Below, piece after piece: positions 20,540-50,445 of a stretch of DNA of 64,000 nucleotides. This stretch comes from an uncultured Clostridia bacterium (lineage in GTDB: Bacteria > Bacillota > Clostridia > Christensenellales > Borkfalkiaceae). How positions within the stretch are numbered: position 1 is the stretch's first letter; each line of letters starts with the position of its first letter. Under the pieces are notes generated by a model. The model ran no database searches. It saw only the letters and a program-made list of their open reading frames with translations, and was not told the origin of the DNA. The stretch covers positions 45,909 through 109,908 of the forward strand of contig CANQWN010000007.1 in NCBI GenBank assembly GCA_947627575.1, read 5' to 3'. The translations under genes and the position numbers were made by a program.

Positions 20540-21625
20540 TCACCCGTCCATATATTCTGCCGCAATCCTCCTCGCGGCGGCGTCTGCCCTTACAAGCGAA
20601 GCCATATCGGCAAGCTTTTCCCGCGGGGTTTTGCGCAGAGTATATTCCACAACCCCGCAAATGCGCGTAAAAGGTATCCTGCCGCCTAAAAACGCGCTTA
20701 CCGCCGTCTCGTCCGCCGCGTTAAGCACGCAGGGCGCAATCCCGCCCTCGTACGCGGCTTGCATACCCAGCGCAAAGCAGGGATATCTGCGCACGTCAAG
20801 CGGCAAAAATTCAAGCGTAAACGCCTTGCCGAAATCCAGATTTTCCAGCCCGCAATCCAGCCGTTCGGGATAGGACAGCGCAAGCTGTATGGGCAATTTC
20901 ATATCCGGCTTGTTCATCTGCGCCAGAATGGCGCCGTCCGCAAACTGCACCATGGAATGTACTATGCTTTGCGGGTGTATCACGGCGGTTATATCCCCGT
21001 ACGGCGTGCCGTACAAAAAGTGCGCCTCCATCACCTCGTAAGCCTTGTTCATGAGCGTGGCGCTGTCCACGGTAACCTTTTTGCCCATATTCCACGTGGG
21101 ATGTTTAAGCGCAAGTTCGGGCGTGACGCGTTCAAGCTCGCTTTCGTCCGCGTCCCTGAAAGGTCCGCCGCTTGCCGTAATTATAAGTTTTTCGGCTTTT
21201 CTTTCCCCGAAGCCGAGGCATTGCCAGATGGCGGAATGTTCGCTGTCCACGGGGATTATGCGCGCGCCCGTCTTTTTTGCAAGCGCGATGATAATTTCGC
21301 CGCCGCACACAAGCGTTTCCTTATTTGCAAGGGCAAGCGTTTTGCCCGCCGCAACGGCGGCAAAGCTGTAAGCCAGCCCCGCGAAACCGGAGGCGGCGTT
21401 GAAGATTATATCCGCCTCTTCCAAAGCGGCGAGGGGCGTGCAGTCGCCGCTGTCCGCCGTGCCGTAAAATTTGGGCGAAAGCGCCTTAACCTGCCGTTCG
21501 AAAAGCCCGCCGCGCCTGCCCGCGCACAGCGCGATTATGCGGAATTTATCGGGGTGGCGCAGGCACACTTCTATCGCCTGCGTGCCTATCGAACCCGTAC
21601 TTCCTATAAGGGAAACTTTTTTCAT
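20540..21625 (-). CDS. dxr: 1-deoxy-D-xylulose 5-phosphate reductoisomerase
   Basis: Second enzyme of the MEP isoprenoid pathway (361 residues). It rearranges and reduces DXP to 2-C-methylerythritol 4-phosphate with NADPH. GSTGSIGTQ is the NADPH loop, LANKETLVCGG and VDSEHSAIWQCL hold metal/substrate residues, and MNKAYEVMEAHFL follows. A TATAAT box lies only 5 nt before the ATG and there is no ribosome binding site, so this gene may be read from a leaderless mRNA as well as from upstream. Confidence 0.97.
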   Translation of the reverse strand: MKKVSLIGSTGSIGTQAIEVCLRHPDKFRIIALCAGRRGGLFERQVKALSPKFYGTADSGDCTPLAALEEADIIFNAASGFAGLAYSFAAVAAGKTLALANKETLVCGGEIIIALAKKTGARIIPVDSEHSAIWQCLGFGERKAEKLIITASGGPFRDADESELERVTPELALKHPTWNMGKKVTVDSATLMNKAYEVMEAHFLYGTPYGDITAVIHPQSIVHSMVQFADGAILAQMNKPDMKLPIQLALSYPERLDCGLENLDFGKAFTLEFLPLDVRRYPCFALGMQAAYEGGIAPCVLNAADETAVSAFLGGRIPFTRICGVVEYTLRKTPREKLADMASLVRADAAARRIAAEYMDG

Positions 21626-21630
21626 TTTAT

Positions 21631-21636
21631 ATTATA
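21631..21636 (-). promoter_or_regulatory. dxr -10 box, predicts a leaderless mRNA
   Basis: TATAAT on the minus strand ends 5 nt before the dxr ATG. The best -35 (TTGTCA) is 19 nt upstream, longer than ideal. No Shine-Dalgarno sequence is present in ATAAA-ATG. Confidence 0.55.
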
Positions 21637-27441: not shown

Positions 27442-28248
27442 CTATTCGTCCTTGTCTTCGGTTTTTTCTTCGGGTACGTCTTCCGTATGTTCTTCTTCGG
27501 AAGCCACCGCTTCTTCAATGGAAACTTCCCCGCCTTCGTCTTCGGAAGTTTCTATAACGGGCGTTACGCCCTGATTTGCTTCGATAACGGCGTTTGCTAT
27601 TACCGAAGATATAAGTTTAACCGCCCTTATGGCGTCGTCGTTGCCGGGTATTACGCAATCGATGAGATCGGGATCGCAGTTGGTATCCGTGATGGCAACG
27701 ATGGGGATATTCAGTTTGCGCGCTTCCTTAACCGCTATTTCCTCGTTATGGGGATCCACAACGAACATTACGCCGGGCAGGCGCGTCATATCCCTTATGC
27801 CGTTAAGGTTAAGCTGCAACTTGCCCATTTCCTCTTTCAGCTTGGCAACTTCCTTTTTGGGCAGAAGGTCGAATTCCCCGTTCTGCTCCATTTTTTCCAG
27901 CTTTACCATCCTGTCTATACGCGAACGGATAGTTTTGAAGTTGGTAAGCGTGCCGCCCAACCAGCGCGAATTTACATAGTACATTCCGCAGCGTTCCGCC
28001 TCTTCCTTTACGGCGTCCTGCGCCTGCTTTTTGGTCCCTACGAAAAGCACGGTTTTGCCGTCCTTAACCGCGTCCACAACGTACTTGTACGCTTCTTCCA
28101 CAAGCCCTACGGTAATCTGCAAATCGATGATGTGTATATCGTTTCTTTCGGCGTAGATATACTTGCTCATCTTGGGATTCCATTTCCTTGTCTGGTGCCC
28201 GAAGTGTACGCCCGCTTCAAGCAGTTGTTTCATTGTTATAACCGCCAT
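27442..28248 (-). CDS. rpsB: 30S ribosomal protein S2
   Basis: A 268-residue small-subunit protein at the head-body junction. [49 protein letters not shown] and the [13 protein letters not shown] stretch are all present. The last 35 residues are a Glu-rich acidic tail. It begins with GGAGG upstream and a structured leader. Confidence 0.97.
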
Positions 28249-28362
28249 ATATATTCCTCCGTTTTACCTCCCCGAAAAGACCTCATCATAAGGGTTTCTG
28301 TCAGCGGCATTAAAAAGATTTACCGCCACGGCTGCCCGTCCTTCGGGTGTGAATTTTATAGC
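28249..28362 (-). promoter_or_regulatory. rpsB leader, candidate S2 autoregulatory RNA
   Basis: A roughly 114-nt leader between the predicted transcription start and the rpsB ATG. It holds CCCGAAGGACGGG and GCCGTGGCGG hairpin segments and two GGAGG-like runs near the start codon. Many bacteria autoregulate rpsB-tsf through such a leader; this one is assigned by position, not by consensus. Confidence 0.45.
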
Positions 28363-28368
28363 TAAATT

Positions 28369-28397
28369 ATTTTAGCAGAAATTAATCGTTCTGTAAA
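28369..28397 (-). promoter_or_regulatory. rpsB promoter
   Basis: TTTACA (28392-28397), 17-nt spacer ending TGC, TAAAAT (28369-28374) on the minus strand. The 100 bases upstream to the next terminator hold only AT-rich sequence with repeated CGTTTTTTAC-like runs. Confidence 0.7.
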
Positions 28398-28481
28398 GCG
28401 TTTTTTAAGCCGAAAAACGTTCAAAAACAGTCGTTTTTTGCGTTTTTTACGTTTTATTTATGAATTTGCGCGCCGCGGCGT

Positions 28482-28525
28482 AAAAAAATTGCCGTGATTT
28501 TCCGCATATACGGAAAATCACGGCA
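28482..28525 (-). terminator. terminator of ruvX-DUF1292
   Basis: A perfect 15-bp stem, TGCCGTGATTTTCCG/CGGAAAATCACGGCA, followed by ATTTTTTTAC on the minus strand. Confidence 0.9.
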
Positions 28526-28551
28526 GGCGCAAAGCGGGAAAAATGCAATCG

Positions 28552-28842
28552 TCAATTTTCCTCTCCGCCGTCCTCTTCGTCCTCTTCGTTGCAAAAGAAA
28601 TCGAAAACTTCCTGCAAAAGCTGTTCGTCCTCCACCGTTTCAAGCCTCTCTTCCTCTTCGTTAAGCCTGAAAATCATAACTTCGCCTTCGGCTACCTGTT
28701 CGTTGGGTTCGGCGGGCATAAGCACGGTGTATTTTTCGCCCTTGTATTCGGTTACGCCCACAAGTTTGAAATATACCGTCTTGCCGAAGTCGTCCACCAG
28801 CTCGATAACGCCGTCCTGCAACTCTTCGTCTTTTTCTTCCAT
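28552..28842 (-). CDS. DUF1292 protein (YrzB-like)
   Basis: A 96-residue acidic protein of unknown function. The core VIELVDDFGKTVYFKLVGVTEYKGEKYTVLMPAE is the DUF1292 pattern, and the tail is nearly all Glu and Asp. The ORF track starts inside ruvX; the true ATG is at 28842, two bases after the ruvX stop with GCGAGG upstream. In B. subtilis the same pair is yrrK-yrzB, so the linkage is conserved. Confidence 0.9.
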   Translation of the reverse strand: MEEKDEELQDGVIELVDDFGKTVYFKLVGVTEYKGEKYTVLMPAEPNEQVAEGEVMIFRLNEEEERLETVEDEQLLQEVFDFFCNEEDEEDGGEEN

Positions 28843-28844
28843 AT

Positions 28845-29267
28845 TCAACCTCGCTTGTTTATTTTTGAAAGATATCCGTCCAAAATATTTGCGGCGGCAA
28901 GCGCGTCCACGTAATTTTTGCGCTTTTCGCGCCGCATCCCCTCCGAAATAAGCGTATCGTGCGCCATACGCGTTGTAAACCGTTCGTCCTCGCATACCAC
29001 GGGTATTTCGCACGCGGCTTTAAGCCCTCCGATAAATTTTAACGTCTTTTCCGTCTGGACGGACGGAGTGCCGTCGAAATTAACGGGCAGACCGCATACT
29101 ATAACGGTTGCTCCCTTATCCCGCGCGGTGCGCACAAGCGCGGCTATGTCCTCGCGGTAGCCCCTGCGCACGTACGTTTCGCTGGGCAACGCGTAGGTGT
29201 TGAACGGATCGGAAACCGCAACGCCTATGCGTTTGTCGCCTATATCGAAAGCAATATATCTGTCCAT
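28845..29267 (-). CDS. ruvX: RuvX/YqgF, Holliday-junction resolvase-like 16S rRNA nuclease
   Basis: A 140-residue RNase H-fold protein involved in 16S rRNA 5'-end maturation (YqgF) and possibly junction resolution. AFDIGDKRIGVAVSDP carries the first catalytic Asp, VVCDERFTT-like VVCEDERFTTRMA the second acid, and DALAAANILDGYL the last Asp. A TATACT box ends 6 nt before the ATG with no ribosome binding site, predicting a leaderless mRNA. Confidence 0.95.
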   Translation of the reverse strand: MDRYIAFDIGDKRIGVAVSDPFNTYALPSETYVRRGYREDIAALVRTARDKGATVIVCGLPVNFDGTPSVQTEKTLKFIGGLKAACEIPVVCEDERFTTRMAHDTLISEGMRREKRKNYVDALAAANILDGYLSKINKRG

Positions 29268-29273
29268 AAATAA

Positions 29274-29302
29274 AGTATAACATTGCGGGAAAGATTTTTC
29301 AA
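29274..29302 (-). promoter_or_regulatory. ruvX promoter, leaderless arrangement
   Basis: TTGAAA (29297-29302), 17-nt spacer ending TGT, TATACT (29274-29279) on the minus strand. Only TTATTT separates the -10 from the ATG. Confidence 0.75.
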
Positions 29303-29314
29303 GCGTTTATAAAA

Positions 29315-29341
29315 TATTGCCGCGGAAATTCCGCGGCAATA
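29315..29341 (-). terminator. terminator after the YtxH-like gene
   Basis: TATTGCCGCGGAA/TTCCGCGGCAATA, followed by TTTTATAA on the minus strand. Confidence 0.7.
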
Positions 29342-29347
29342 CGTGGG

Positions 29348-29560
29348 TCAGTCGGACTGTTGGCGGGCGGTTTTTTCGCCCTTATCGCCTTTTTTGTCCT
29401 TCTTTTCCAACTCTTCCAGCTTATTGTCGATATACTGTTCTGCTTTTTCCATCAGATCTTCCTGATTTTTTTTGATGAGATTGCGCAGTTTACAGTTGTT
29501 TGCGACTATAAGCGCGCCGCCTGCCATACCCAAAGCGACGCCCAACATAAATTTTTCCAC
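29348..29560 (-). CDS. small YtxH-like membrane-anchored protein (70 aa)
   Basis: One N-terminal hydrophobic segment with glycines (LGVALGMAGGALIVAN), then a Lys/Glu-rich helical tail (LEELEKKDKKGDKGEK). This is the pattern of YtxH/DUF948-type general stress proteins, but the match is by shape only. It starts at GTG with a perfect AAGGAG at 6-nt spacing, and ends at a terminator. Confidence 0.75.
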   Translation of the reverse strand: MEKFMLGVALGMAGGALIVANNCKLRNLIKKNQEDLMEKAEQYIDNKLEELEKKDKKGDKGEKTARQQSD

Positions 29561-29660
29561 TTTTCTCTCCTTGAGGGATTTAACCCTTTTACAGTATGCC
29601 GCTTATGAAAAAATATATAAGTGGAAAGAATTAGTATGCCCCCCAAACCCCGAAAGCGTG

Positions 29661-29689
29661 TTGACATAAAGCGGATTATGGGGTATAAT
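29661..29689 (+). promoter_or_regulatory. yitT-like gene promoter, leaderless arrangement
   Basis: TTGACA (29661-29666), 17-nt spacer, TATAAT (29684-29689): perfect consensus. The ATG at 29696 is only 6 nt further on. Confidence 0.88.
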
Positions 29690-29695
29690 TCGGGT

Positions 29696-30586
29696 ATGGA
29701 AAGGAGCAAATCTATAAAAAAATTTCTCTTTAAATATGCCGTTATAACGCTTGGCTGTATAATCTATTCCGTGGGCGTGGCTATGTTTTTGGACGTAGCC
29801 GACCTTGCCGCGGGCGGCGTTACGGGCATAGCGATATTTTTAAACTACCTGATACCCAAATTGGATACGGGCATACTTATAATAATCATCAATGTCCCGC
29901 TGTTTATCCTCGGCGCGATATTCTTCGGCAGAAATTTTGCGCTGTCCACAATGTTTTCCACACTGCTTTCCTCGGGACTGATAGAGCTGTGGCATTACGT
30001 GCTTAAAGATTTTTTGCCGTTTACCGACGAATTGCTTATTTCCGCCGTGATAGGCGGCGGCGCGTTCGGCATGGGGCTGGGCATAATTTTCCGTATGGGC
30101 AGTTCCACCGGCGGCACGGACGTGATTGTAAAAATACTGCACAAAAAGTTCCGCTTTATAAAGACGGGCGTAATTTCAATGATTATCGATATTACGATAG
30201 TTTGCATTTCCGCCATAATTTACAGGAACTTCGAGCGGACTTTTTACACCGTCGTTTCGATTATTATCTTCACCCTGATGTTCGACTTTATGCTTTACGG
30301 CGGAAACACCGCGAAGTTCACCTATATAATTACCGACGAGCAAAAATCGGAAGAGATAATAAAGAAGATTTTAGAGGACCTGAACGTGGGCGCGACGTAT
30401 GTGGACGGCAAGGGCGGCTACACCAAAAACGGCAGAAGAATAATTATGTGCGCCATCAAAAATATGCTTTACCCCCGCCTGCGGGACGCGGTTTACGAGA
30501 TCGACCCGGACGCGTTTATGATAGTAACTTCCGCAAAGGAAATTTACGGCGAGGGCTACAAAACCCACAGCGACGGCGATTTATAA
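29696..30586 (+). CDS. YitT family membrane protein (DUF161 + DUF2179)
   Basis: A 296-residue protein with about 5-6 transmembrane segments (residues 10-190), with AAGGVTGIAIFLNYL and FRMGSSTGGTDVIVKIL, followed by a cytosolic DUF2179 domain (EEIIKKILEDLNVGATYVDGKGGY to the end). Function unknown for the family. The ORF track starts at 29621, upstream of the promoter; the perfect promoter at 29661-29689 makes that impossible for this transcript, so I take ATG 29696. It has no upstream ribosome binding site and should be leaderless. Confidence 0.92.
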   Translation: MERSKSIKKFLFKYAVITLGCIIYSVGVAMFLDVADLAAGGVTGIAIFLNYLIPKLDTGILIIIINVPLFILGAIFFGRNFALSTMFSTLLSSGLIELWHYVLKDFLPFTDELLISAVIGGGAFGMGLGIIFRMGSSTGGTDVIVKILHKKFRFIKTGVISMIIDITIVCISAIIYRNFERTFYTVVSIIIFTLMFDFMLYGGNTAKFTYIITDEQKSEEIIKKILEDLNVGATYVDGKGGYTKNGRRIIMCAIKNMLYPRLRDAVYEIDPDAFMIVTSAKEIYGEGYKTHSDGDL

Positions 30587-30605
30587 CATATATCCATAAT
30601 ATGAC

Positions 30606-30636
30606 GGGCGTCCGCGCGGTAACCGCGCGGACGCCC
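30606..30636. terminator. bidirectional terminator
   Basis: A perfect 15-bp inverted repeat, GGGCGTCCGCGCGGT/ACCGCGCGGACGCCC, with CTATTTTTTC on the plus side. It lies between the convergent yitT-like gene and the 30645 gene. Confidence 0.85.
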
Positions 30637-30644
30637 CTATTTTT

Positions 30645-31241
30645 TCAGCTTAAATTTCTCAATTGAAGGCGCAGAAGATTGTTCTCGTCCGTAAGTTTTT
30701 TCACCACCGCCAAAAGGCGCTTGTTTTCGTCTTTAAGCGATTTTGCAAGCCTGTCGTAAAGCCCGTTTATTTCCTCTTCCAGCTTCTTTCTCATTCCGTC
30801 CGCGCCGTCTATCCCGCACTCGCGCATAAGCCGCTCTATACGCTCGGGCTGTTTTGTAAGCACGTTGCGGTATTTGTTCTGATAGCGCAACATAAGTTTA
30901 TCGTCCCCCTCCGAAAGGTTAAGCACGGCTTTGCGCACGGATACGCCCTTGCTTTTTTGTTCGAGTACGGCTTTAAGCATTTCGTCCGTCTCGCTTTCGG
31001 AAAAGGGCACTATTTTGCCCGCCTGCAAGCCCGTGCCCTGCAAAATTTTTTTCACCCTGTCGTCGTCGCGGCTTTTAAGCAGGGCGTAATAGTAATTGCG
31101 CACGCTGCCCTTCGCCCTGCCCGTCTTTTCGGCGTAGCTTGCAAACAAGCCGGAAAGGGTTTTGCCCGCGTTCCTGCCCGTGCATATATATCTTACAAGG
31201 CTTTTTGCCTCTTCCTCGGTGTAACCGTTTATTTTGTTCAT
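30645..31241 (-). CDS. probable DNA-binding protein with C-terminal coiled coil (198 aa)
   Basis: I do not recognise the exact family. Two helix-turn-helix-like blocks appear: residues 7-55 (TEEEAKSLVRYIC ... GSVRNYYYALLKS) and 85-125 (ESETDEMLKAVLEQKSKGVSVRKAVLNLS). A coiled coil fills the last 50 residues (KDENKRLLAVVKKLTDENNLLR). The layout recalls Myb-like plus coiled-coil regulators such as RsfA of sporulating bacilli, but no motif proves it. GGAGG precedes the ATG. Single gene. Confidence 0.7.
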   Translation of the reverse strand: MNKINGYTEEEAKSLVRYICTGRNAGKTLSGLFASYAEKTGRAKGSVRNYYYALLKSRDDDRVKKILQGTGLQAGKIVPFSESETDEMLKAVLEQKSKGVSVRKAVLNLSEGDDKLMLRYQNKYRNVLTKQPERIERLMRECGIDGADGMRKKLEEEINGLYDRLAKSLKDENKRLLAVVKKLTDENNLLRLQLRNLS

Positions 31242-41033: not shown

Positions 41034-41062
41034 TTGCTTAAATTTTTAAGATGGATTATAAT
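41034..41062 (+). promoter_or_regulatory. promoter overlapping the radical SAM ORF start
   Basis: TTGCTT (41034-41039), 17-nt spacer, TATAAT (41057-41062). The -10 lies inside the track's ORF, so translation must begin downstream, at ATG 41075, only 12 nt past the -10. Confidence 0.65.
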
Positions 41063-41074
41063 TATCAGCGTAAT

Positions 41075-42871
41075 ATGAACGTAGATATCCAAAAACTTAA
41101 AAACATTTTGCTTTCCTGCGAAAAGCCCGCGCGTTACGTGGGCGGGGAATACGGCGCGCCCGCGCTTAAAGAAAGCGGGTTCCTCTTCTGCCTGTGCTTC
41201 CCCGATTTATACGAAGTGGGCACAAGCAACCTCGGGATAAAGATCGTTGCGGAAAGCGTAAACGCCCGCGGATATACCGCGGATTTTTGCTACGCGCCGT
41301 ACAGGGACTTCGGCGCCGCGCTGAAAGCCGCGGGGATACCGCTGTATTCGCTGGGGCTGAAAAAGCCGCTTGCGGAATTTGATATGTTAGGCTTTTCGCT
41401 GCAATTCGAGCTGTGCTACACAAACGTGCTGTATATGCTTGATCTGGCGGGGATACCCCTTTTGCGCAAGGACAGAGAGGGCGGAAAATATCCGCTGATT
41501 GCGCTGGGCGGACCCTGCGCCGTCAACCCCGAACCCCTTGCCGACTTTGCCGACATAGTTTTTGTGGGCGACGGGGAAGAAACCGACGCGCTTGTGGGCG
41601 AGGCGTACGTAAGGTGCGGCGGCGCAAACGAAAAGTTTTACGACGAAATATCGCGCATAGACGGGGTATACCTCCCCTCCCGCACCGCCGTGAATTATTC
41701 GCCCGACGGGAAGATAACTTCGTTCGGCGGGACGACGCGGGTAAAAAAGGCGATTGTGAAAAATCTCGACGGGGCGGTGTTCCCCGAAAAAATATGCGTG
41801 CCCAACTGCGAAAGCGTGCACGACCGCGCCGTGATTGAGGTTATGCGCGGCTGTTACCGCGGGTGCAGGTTCTGTCAGGCGGGCTTTATCTACCGCCCCG
41901 TGCGCGCCCGTTCCGTGCAGACGCTTACAAGGCAGGCTTGCGCCCTTATCAAAAACACGGGCTACGGGGAAGTAAGCCTGAATTCCCTTTCCACGGGCGA
42001 TTATCCGCACCTGAAAGAATTGCTGAAAAGCCTTAAAGCGCAATTGCCGGGCGACGTTACGCTTGCCCTGCCCTCTCTGCGCGCGGACAGCTTCGAGGGG
42101 GATTTCACGCAGGACGCAAGGCGTATTTCTCTTACCTTTGCGCCCGAAGCGGGCACGCAACGCCTGCGCGACGCAATAAACAAGGACATCACCGAAGAGG
42201 AAATTTTAAAAGCCGCCGAAAGCGCGTTCGACGCGGGATATTCCGCGGTGAAATTGTATTTTATGTTGGGATTGCCAACCGAAACGGACGAGGATATAGC
42301 GGGCATAAACGACATATGCGCGAAGATAAAAGGGCTGTATAACAAACAGAAGCGCGCAAAGCCTTTGCGCATTTCGGTATCCTGCGCGACGTTTATCCCA
42401 AAGCCGTTTACCCCCTTCCAATGGGAAAAGCAGTGCGGCGAAGAGGAAATTACGCGCAAGCTGGACGTGCTGAAACGCACTTTGAAAGTGAAAGGCGTTA
42501 CGTTAAGCTGGTCCGATAACTTTGCCGCAAAGCTGGAGGCGGTGTTCGCCCGCGGCGACAGAAAACTATCAAAAGTGCTTTGCCGCGCCTATGAAAACGG
42601 TTGCATCTTCGACGGATGGGACAAGGAATTCAACCGCGCGGGCTGGCAAAAGGCGTTTGACGAGACGGGCGTGCGCCCCGACGAATACACCCGCGAATGG
42701 GACGAAAACGAAATATTGCCGTGGGACATAATAGACGTGGGCGTGGACAAAAAATTTTTTGCGGAAGAGCGGAAACGCGCCTACGGCGGCAAAGTGACGG
42801 GCAGTTGCCTGCAATCCTGCAAAGGGTGCGGGTTACAGAAAGTATGCCCCGCCGCGGGAGGCGAAAAATGA
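41075..42871 (+). CDS. TIGR03960-type B12-binding radical SAM protein
   Basis: A 598-residue iron-sulfur enzyme of unknown reaction. A cobalamin-binding-like N-terminal domain (GFLFCLCFPDLYEVGTSNLG, LGGPCAVNPEPLADFADIVFVGDGEE) is followed by the radical SAM cluster motif CYRGCRFC and a TIM-barrel (residues 260-480). A Cys-rich end, CLQSCKGCGLQKVC, probably binds a second cluster. It partners with the TIGR03936/DUF2344 gene that overlaps its stop. In many bacteria this pair precedes rng-rplU-rpmA; rng is absent here. Start moved from 41051 to 41075 because of the promoter. Confidence 0.92.
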   Translation: MNVDIQKLKNILLSCEKPARYVGGEYGAPALKESGFLFCLCFPDLYEVGTSNLGIKIVAESVNARGYTADFCYAPYRDFGAALKAAGIPLYSLGLKKPLAEFDMLGFSLQFELCYTNVLYMLDLAGIPLLRKDREGGKYPLIALGGPCAVNPEPLADFADIVFVGDGEETDALVGEAYVRCGGANEKFYDEISRIDGVYLPSRTAVNYSPDGKITSFGGTTRVKKAIVKNLDGAVFPEKICVPNCESVHDRAVIEVMRGCYRGCRFCQAGFIYRPVRARSVQTLTRQACALIKNTGYGEVSLNSLSTGDYPHLKELLKSLKAQLPGDVTLALPSLRADSFEGDFTQDARRISLTFAPEAGTQRLRDAINKDITEEEILKAAESAFDAGYSAVKLYFMLGLPTETDEDIAGINDICAKIKGLYNKQKRAKPLRISVSCATFIPKPFTPFQWEKQCGEEEITRKLDVLKRTLKVKGVTLSWSDNFAAKLEAVFARGDRKLSKVLCRAYENGCIFDGWDKEFNRAGWQKAFDETGVRPDEYTREWDENEILPWDIIDVGVDKKFFAEERKRAYGGKVTGSCLQSCKGCGLQKVCPAAGGEK

Positions 42872-48608: not shown

Positions 48609-49637
48609 TTACGCCGATATGCCGAATATAGCCGCAACCGCGGTTATTACAAGCGGAATGGTAACCAAACTTAAAACCGTGCCCGAAACGAACCCGGAAG
48701 CGGCTGTGCGCGTATCCCCGCCGAAACTTTCAGCCATGGCAAGGACGGACGCCGCAGGCGACATAGCCATAGCTATAACGGGCGAAATGTAAACAAATTC
48801 CTCAAACCCGCTTGCCGCGCCCGCACCCAAAACGCCGCGGAAGGGCAAAGCCAACGCCAAAGTGAGAAAGGGCGCAACCGCAAGCCGCAAAAAGCCCGCA
48901 AAGTATGAACCTTTGTCCCCGAAAATGCTTTTAAAATCCATTTCCGCCACGCGCACGCCCACTATTATCATTGAAAGGGGCGCCGTCATATAGGATAAAT
49001 ACTGCGGCAACATACGCAGCTGTTCTGCGCCGTCAAGCATAAATATATTTATCTGCGGCACGAAGAACAGCGCCAAAGCCACCACGTTTGAAATTACGGT
49101 GGGGTTTAACAGCACCTTTTTAAGGCGTATGTTTTTTACGCTTCCCGTAATAAGCGCAACGCCGAACGTCCAGCACATAATGCTGAAAACCACGTTGAAC
49201 ACCATCATATACATAACCGCCACAGGGTTGCCGTCGGTAAAGGCTTCCACAAACGGTATGCCCAAAAATCCGCAATTGGAAAAGACGGCTATGTATGTGT
49301 ATACGTTTGCCGCGTCCTTCCTCTTATACCGTAAAAAAACAAGTTTGCAAAGCGCAAACATTATCCCCATTGCGGCAAAGGAAATTGCCGCCGTTATAGC
49401 AAAATTTTTAAGAAAGACCGTCTTTTTTATCGCCTGAACCACGGCGTAATCCTCTTCCGAAAATACGCAGAAGGAATTTATCGCCAAAGCCGGCTGGCAA
49501 ACATACAGCAACAGATTGCTTAACGTTACGGTTGCGCCTTCGCCGAAAAGTTTAAGTTTTTTAAGCGCAAACCCCGGCAACATAAACGCAAAAAGCACCG
49601 CCATAATAAGCAATACCTTTAAATAAACGTGTACCAT
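48609..49637 (-). CDS. AEC family auxin-efflux-type transporter
   Basis: A 342-residue permease with about 10 transmembrane helices. The first helices show FMLPGFALKKLKLFGEGAT and LLLYVCQPALAINSF, and the second half APLSMIIVGVRVAEMDF. AEC transporters carry organic acids such as malate or other anions; the substrate here is unknown. The ORF track starts at 49700, but a TTTACA-17-TATAAT promoter ends 7 nt before ATG 49637, so the gene is probably read from a leaderless mRNA. It is divergent from araC. Confidence 0.88.
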   Translation of the reverse strand: MVHVYLKVLLIMAVLFAFMLPGFALKKLKLFGEGATVTLSNLLLYVCQPALAINSFCVFSEEDYAVVQAIKKTVFLKNFAITAAISFAAMGIMFALCKLVFLRYKRKDAANVYTYIAVFSNCGFLGIPFVEAFTDGNPVAVMYMMVFNVVFSIMCWTFGVALITGSVKNIRLKKVLLNPTVISNVVALALFFVPQINIFMLDGAEQLRMLPQYLSYMTAPLSMIIVGVRVAEMDFKSIFGDKGSYFAGFLRLAVAPFLTLALALPFRGVLGAGAASGFEEFVYISPVIAMAMSPAASVLAMAESFGGDTRTAASGFVSGTVLSLVTIPLVITAVAAIFGISA

Positions 49638-49644
49638 AGCGTTA

Positions 49645-49673
49645 ATTATATCACTGCCGAAAAATATTGTAAA
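49645..49673 (-). promoter_or_regulatory. AEC gene promoter, leaderless arrangement
   Basis: TTTACA (49668-49673), 17-nt spacer, TATAAT (49645-49650) on the minus strand. Only 7 nt separate the -10 from the ATG. Confidence 0.8.
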
Positions 49674-49693: not shown

Positions 49694-49722
49694 TGGACAA
49701 AACGGATATTTTGTGATATAAT
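49694..49722 (+). promoter_or_regulatory. araC promoter, leaderless arrangement
   Basis: TGGACA (49694-49699), 17-nt spacer ending TGA, TATAAT (49717-49722). The ATG at 49729 is 6 nt further on. Confidence 0.75.
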
Positions 49723-49728
49723 ACGGAT

Positions 49729-50445
49729 ATGAACAGAATTACTTTTGCGGGAAAAATTCAAAACCGCCGCGAGGCGGGGGATACGCGGGCTTACGAAATA
49801 ATTGTGCCCGACCAACGCGGAGAACTTATCTGCGGCGGCGGGGAAAAGGCGTTTTGCCGCGGGAACGTGATAGTTATCCCCCCCGCTTGCGCGTGCGAAA
49901 TACGCGGCTTGCGGGAATATCTGCTTATACGTATCGAACAGGCGCTGTTGCAGTGCGGCAAACCCGCCGTGATAGACGATATGCCGTACGGCGACATAGC
50001 GCGCGCGGCTGAACAGGCGGAAAGATATTTTGCGGCGGGCGGGGGCGTGCTGGAGGCTTTGGGCGGACTTATAACGGCATATATCGCCGCGGCGCAGGGC
50101 GTTAAACAGCTTTCGCCCGTGGTAGCCACAGTGAAAAACGAGATAGAGCGCAATATAAGTCTTGCCGCGTTTTCGCTTGAAGATTATCTTAAAAGCCTAC
50201 CGTTGAACTACGACTATCTGCGCAAACTTTTCAGAAAGGAAACGGGCGTAACCCCGCACGAATATATGATTTCGCTGCGGATGCAACTTGCGCGCGGACT
50301 GCTTGAGGGGGGAATTTCCAACAGATACAGCAACTATTCGGTTGCGCAGATTGCGGAAGCCTGCGGATTTGCGGAACCGCTGTACTTTTCGCGCGTGTTT
50401 AAAAAGCGCTTCGGCGTGTCCCCCTCCTATTACCTTAAAAAGTGA
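49729..50445 (+). CDS. AraC-family transcriptional regulator
   Basis: A 238-residue regulator. The N-terminal 120 residues form a cupin-like sensor domain (FCRGNVIVIPPACACEIRG). The C-terminal 100 residues carry two HTH motifs: FSLEDYLKSLPLNYDYLRKLFRKETGVTPHEYM and YSVAQIAEACGFAEPLYFSRVFKKRFGVSPSYYL. The neighbouring pectin operon and the family suggest a sugar-sensing activator of that locus, but no target site can be proved. Leaderless arrangement with no ribosome binding site. Confidence 0.93.
   Translation: MNRITFAGKIQNRREAGDTRAYEIIVPDQRGELICGGGEKAFCRGNVIVIPPACACEIRGLREYLLIRIEQALLQCGKPAVIDDMPYGDIARAAEQAERYFAAGGGVLEALGGLITAYIAAAQGVKQLSPVVATVKNEIERNISLAAFSLEDYLKSLPLNYDYLRKLFRKETGVTPHEYMISLRMQLARGLLEGGISNRYSNYSVAQIAEACGFAEPLYFSRVFKKRFGVSPSYYLKK

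Follow-up and report, generated by a model that had tools for sequence, protein, structure and literature searches.

Both the leaderless mechanism and its presence in this phylum are already known, mainly from streptococci and mycoplasmas. Zheng et al. 2011 described TA-led genes, in which a TANNNT box lies about 12 bp before the start, and predicted leaderless genes in 56 of 209 Firmicutes genomes (mean, 4.2%), mostly of Lactobacillales and Mycoplasma; initiation types were found to be exchanged between orthologues (PMC3160421). By mapping, 8.6 to 9% of the mRNAs of Streptococcus pyogenes and S. agalactiae are leaderless, with strong conservation between the species (PMC6431027), while transcript-start mapping in Clostridioides difficile detected only 15 potentially leaderless genes (PMC7438776). 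A sequence-only reading of 64 kb of DNA from an uncultured Clostridia bacterium (the whole stretch of 64,000 nucleotides is referred to here as the window) had proposed leaderless mRNAs for ruvX and a yitT-like gene and had called the pattern unusual for a Bacillota genome. In view of the streptococcal figures (PMC6431027) and the predictions for Firmicutes (PMC3160421), the latter statement was too strong.

The ruvX gene, encoding a Holliday junction resolvase (positions 28845 to 29267, minus strand; PF03652, E = 2.4e-36), was preceded on the minus strand by the order TTGAAA-17-TATACT-TTATTT-ATG, with the −35 box at 29297 to 29302, the −10 box at 29274 to 29279 and the start codon at 29267. 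The −10 box had an extended TG at 29282 to 29281 and ended 6 nt 5' of the ATG; its first T lay 12 nt before the ATG, in line with a −10 (TANNNT) box at about 12 bp. The yitT gene, encoding a YitT-like membrane protein (29696 to 30586, plus strand; PF02588, E = 6.1e-51; PF10035, E = 3.4e-19), had the plus-strand order TTGACA-17-TATAAT-TCGGGT-ATG, with the −35 box at 29661 to 29666, the −10 box at 29684 to 29689, again ending 6 nt 5' of the ATG, and the start codon at 29696. This promoter matched the consensus at 12 of 12 positions. Both promoters were recovered from the sequence and from a promoter consensus scan exactly as they had been described, and the accompanying claim that a ribosome binding site is lacking at both genes was borne out by the absence of any SD match of at least 4 nt in the usual window 5' of either ATG. 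In yitT, too, the −10 box began about 12 bp ahead of the start codon and no SD sequence was present. The region from 28000 to 31000 contained seven promoter-like sites, compared to 4.2 ± 1.7 in shuffled sequence, and the ruvX and yitT promoters were among the best of these.

Between the two genes lies a 70-amino-acid gene (29348 to 29560, minus strand) which forms an SD-led contrast to both neighbors, having the SD sequence AAGGAGAG at 29572 to 29565 before a GTG; a Pfam search with this gene gave no match. A hairpin (29342 to 29314) with a U-rich tail, together spanning 29304 to 29342 on the minus strand (−21.6 kcal/mol, z = −5.1), is the likely terminator of this gene and stops some ten bases short of the ruvX −35 box. 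The presence of a likely terminator just upstream suggested that ruvX is its own transcription unit. Neither the 70-amino-acid gene nor this hairpin had been noticed in the sequence-only reading. No Rfam families were found within the 64-kb window.

The position of the ruvX start codon was well defined. Upstream of the ATG at 29267 the frame was open for only 13 codons and contained no start codon, and the conserved RuvX N terminus, MDRYIAFDIGDKRIGVAVSD, came immediately after it; this ATG was therefore the sole possible start. A start codon further inside the gene, which would have undermined the leaderless proposal, was excluded for ruvX by this conserved N terminus. The start of yitT was less certain since the frame was open for 25 codons upstream and contained three in-frame starts, a GTG at 29621 and ATGs at 29636 and 29678. 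One of these could be the true start, served by an unseen promoter, with the perfect promoter being secondary or producing a shorter form of the protein. However, only weak SD-like purines (GGAAAG) were present before the ATG at 29636, and the 12-of-12 promoter would then fall inside the coding region, so that an upstream start was considered unlikely. An SD-like word, AAGGAG, was also noted right after the start codon, just inside the yitT frame (29701 to 29706; ATGGAAAGGAGC), but no start codon was located at a suitable distance from it. The seven best-scoring yitT relatives were mixed: three were SD-led (L050 to L052), three were leaderless-like, with a TATAAT 7 nt before a GTG (L053 and L054) or 8 nt before an ATG (L055), and one was unclear (L056).

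Conservation of the ruvX layout was examined in 89 distinct related loci, and mostly two types were observed. In 50 loci, an SD sequence was absent and a −10 box lay 4 to 10 nt from the start codon; 34 of these had the box at exactly 6 nt, and this spacing had been kept although the remaining upstream DNA had changed. Another 25 loci were SD-led, and in these the −10 box, where seen, was further upstream. Neither signal was detected at the thresholds used in 13 of the 89 loci, several of which had a box at 11 to 13 nt. The start codon differed between the types, with ATG in 47 of 50 leaderless-type loci and in 8 of 25 SD-led loci, the others of which had TTG or GTG (Fisher, P = 2.7e-8, with loci counted as if unrelated). 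An independent-pairs comparison of start codon with type yielded few supported pairs. As leaderless mRNAs prefer AUG (PMC9031893), this ATG bias fits a leaderless reading of these loci. A RuvX tree, which was weakly resolved for this short protein, indicated at least eight changes between the types. By switching between a leaderless ATG and an SD-led TTG or GTG form inside a single group, ruvX offers a compact natural experiment in how one initiation mode gives way to another.

Spacing statistics were obtained from 862 kb of the same genome, sampled in stretches that included the window and left 798 kb outside it; genes were called in this sample from codon usage alone. Of the coding-optimal starts, 21 were preceded at 6 nt by a TATAAT-like box matching at 5 or more of its 6 positions, whereas the neighboring spacings mostly had 4 to 10. 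The −10-to-start distance of the coding-optimal starts also peaked at 19, 28 and 34 nt, perhaps reflecting preferred leader lengths. When promoter-like sites in the 862 kb were paired, without the gene caller, with ATGs opening an open reading frame of at least 60 codons, there was a peak of 13 at 6 nt against about 2 to 3. Distance profiles that were blind to reading frame were noisy, and the 6-nt peak emerged when open reading frames and promoter quality were considered. A genome-wide count of this spacing had been put forward as a check of the sequence-only reading, and its outcome was favorable: in the 798 kb outside the window, 11 gene-opening ATGs were found at 6 nt, whereas 14 other spacings averaged 2.3 (P = 2.8e-5). 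The exact pattern TGnTATAAT-N6-ATG occurred at 13 sites in the whole genome, 11 of which opened long open reading frames, and the genes at such sites included glpK, ispE, rsmG and one for a DegV-type protein (named by N-terminal motifs alone). The excess at 6 nt amounted to about 15 of 650 genes, with some additional excess at 5, 7 and 8 nt, from which the leaderless share was roughly estimated at perhaps 2 to 4% of all genes in the genome.

The same pattern was then counted across the clade by exact matching in genomes that are mutually related and include assemblies from metagenomes. A reversed-pattern control was too lenient, and an ATG at 12 nt, an ATC at 6 nt and a GTG at 6 nt were added as controls. 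In 200 genomes of the order to which this genome belongs, probably the GTDB order Christensenellales, TGnTATAAT-N6-ATG was detected 1,539 times, compared to 507 times for the N12 control; the equivalent values were 1,064 and 908 in 299 genomes from elsewhere in the phylum. Ten well-sampled families exhibited a 4- to 7-fold excess, and an excess of the 6-nt layout was absent from families f4, f13, f23 and f33. The named relatives were uncultured Clostridia metagenome-assembled genomes, Candidatus Coproplasma among them. One genome of another family outside the order (G478, family f147) had 16 matches at 6 nt and 1 at 12 nt, possibly through an independent gain of leaderless genes. The leaderless layout was the norm in the family of the genome under study, where an ATG at 6 nt was found 165 times, an ATG at 12 nt 27 times, an ATC at 6 nt 26 times and a GTG at 6 nt 23 times; a GTG at 6 nt was thus no more frequent than the ATC control. 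The excess required both the spacing and the ATG, and a mere initiator effect was therefore ruled out.

At such sites, a T directly preceded the ATG in 67 of 73 cases within the genus, compared with only 6 of 25 in the nonenriched family f4. Over all ATG starts of the genome under study a T was present at this position in 268 of 486, a significantly lower proportion than in the genus sites (Fisher, P = 1.6e-10). The usual transcription initiator has a pyrimidine at −1 and an A at +1, and a T before the ATG is what would be expected if transcription begins at the A of the ATG. It could be argued that an ordinary T-A initiator yields TATG by chance, with translation beginning at a downstream or SD-led codon; T-A is indeed usual, and ATA and GTA triplets are likewise common at these positions. 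This explanation was judged very improbable, given that ATC was 6-fold rarer than ATG at the same place in the family (26 versus 165), that, among ATGs placed 6 nt from the box, 16 of 21 opened an open reading frame of at least 60 codons, compared with 3 of 10 placed at 12 nt, and that ruvX has no downstream start that would preserve the conserved N terminus. That an AT-rich hexamer precedes the ATG purely by accident, such words being abundant in this genome, was less credible still. TATAAT-like words are common and many spacings have a few matches, but the excess occurred only at a single spacing, only with ATG and only with T at −1, it persisted outside the window, and the ruvX layout was conserved across relatives.

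Recurrence of the layout within the window had been claimed for four further genes, and three of these were retained. A TATAAT with an extended TG (49717 to 49722, plus strand) was located 6 nt before the ATG at 49729 of a gene for an AraC-type regulator (49729 to 50445), and another, also with an extended TG (49645 to 49650, minus strand), was 7 nt before the ATG at 49637 of a Mem_trans (AEC) transporter gene (48609 to 49637). These two genes are divergent and both leaderless-looking, with promoters back to back and start codons only 91 nt apart (49637 and 49729). In dxr (20540 to 21625), the TATAAT (21631 to 21636, minus strand) was 5 nt before the ATG at 21625 and was accompanied by a poor −35 box (2 of 6 matches). 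The radical SAM gene was rejected as a leaderless example: its TATAAT (41057 to 41062, plus strand) ended 12 nt, and began 18 nt, before the ATG at 41075, at variance with a −10 box starting about 12 bp upstream, and a further in-frame ATG was present at 41051, so that the TATAAT lies between two in-frame ATGs. This gene may have an SD-less leader of about 5 nt.

The 7-nt and 5-nt spacings of the AEC and dxr genes, together with −10 boxes 9 to 13 nt from the start in some ruvX relatives, which would correspond to leaders of about 3 to 7 nt, raised the question of whether these transcripts are strictly leaderless or only leaderless-like, with a very short leader of 1 to 6 nt or a start that wobbles between zero and a few nucleotides. 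We regard this alternative as the most serious one but as fairly unlikely, as the sharp 6-nt peak with a T at −1 favors the A of the ATG as the +1 position.

Leaderless transcription was the best explanation for ruvX because the start was pinned, the spacing was conserved, a T preceded the ATG and ATG use tracked the layout. For yitT the same proposal was likely but weaker, due to the upstream in-frame starts and the mixed nature of the closest relatives. Overall, we consider it highly probable that ruvX, very probably yitT, and about 2 to 4% of all genes in this genome are expressed as leaderless mRNAs from promoters 6 (5 to 8) nt before the start; the observed elements of this proposal are the promoter, the spacing, the absence of an SD sequence, the conservation and the genome- and clade-wide excess. 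A sigma-A-type RNA polymerase would recognize a vegetative-type promoter whose −10 box lies 6 (5 to 8) nt before the start codon and, judging from the promoter geometry, would start transcription on the A of the ATG, producing an mRNA without a leader. By analogy with work on leaderless mRNAs (PMC9031893), 70S ribosomes with fMet-tRNA would presumably bind the 5'-terminal AUG of this SD-less mRNA. A further upstream promoter could add leadered transcripts.

The distribution of the layout within the order coincided with a split in ribosomal protein S1. Against an rpsA profile, S1 from the leaderless-rich families scored about 200 bits and S1 from the remaining families about 310 bits, and hardly any scores fell between these values. 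TGnTATAAT-N6-ATG and the N12 control were found at a ratio of 1,148:231 (5-fold) in the families with a diverged S1 and 265:231 in those with a conserved S1. Divergence between the groups was greatest in S1 domains 1 and 2, and no comparable divergence was detected when S2 and S21 were compared between the groups. In genome G000 and most genomes examined, S1 was fused to IspH; the G000 fusion protein (G000:C1:276753-277781, in L022) had a strongly diverged S1 part, again in domains 1 and 2. In Escherichia coli S1, the first two domains are the ribosome-docking part. An S2 tree had one branch (100/98) dividing the diverged-S1 from the conserved-S1 group. With a single branch separating the groups, the diverged S1 and the leaderless excess represent one evolutionary event rather than a repeated correlation and, as both traits change on that branch, cause is indistinguishable from shared ancestry. 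A causal link is plausible because S1, along with S2, has been tabulated as mildly inhibiting leaderless translation (PMC9031893). We tentatively raise the idea, which we think is rather doubtful, that an S1 weakened by divergence of domains 1 and 2 tipped the initiation balance toward leaderless mRNAs, with leaderless promoters multiplying in the clade.

With these results, the bacteria predicted to use leaderless mRNAs come to include a large clade of uncultured Clostridia that are common in the gut, and a T-ATG 6 nt after a TATAAT is a marker that gene finders could use for start placement. Some antibiotics and stresses affect leaderless mRNAs differently, and which genes are leaderless therefore matters for physiology.

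The literature searched yielded nothing on leaderless genes in Christensenella-type Clostridia and, as far as this literature shows, the clade is new for such genes. The genes described here share with the TA-led genes of Zheng et al. 2011 both the lack of an SD sequence and a TATAAT-like box whose first T is placed about 12 bp ahead of the start; a TG preceding this box in low-GC Firmicutes and the replacement of one type by another between orthologues are further points of similarity, but this uncultured Clostridia clade was not among the Firmicutes found in that study (PMC3160421). The streptococci belong to the same phylum in the broad sense but to a different class, and their leaderless mRNAs were mapped whereas those reported here are predicted (PMC6431027). 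Clostridioides difficile shares with this genome its membership of the Clostridia and its sigma-A promoters (PMC7438776). The same principle applies in Actinobacteria and Deinococcus-Thermus, where about 20% of genes or more are leaderless, compared to a predicted few percent here.
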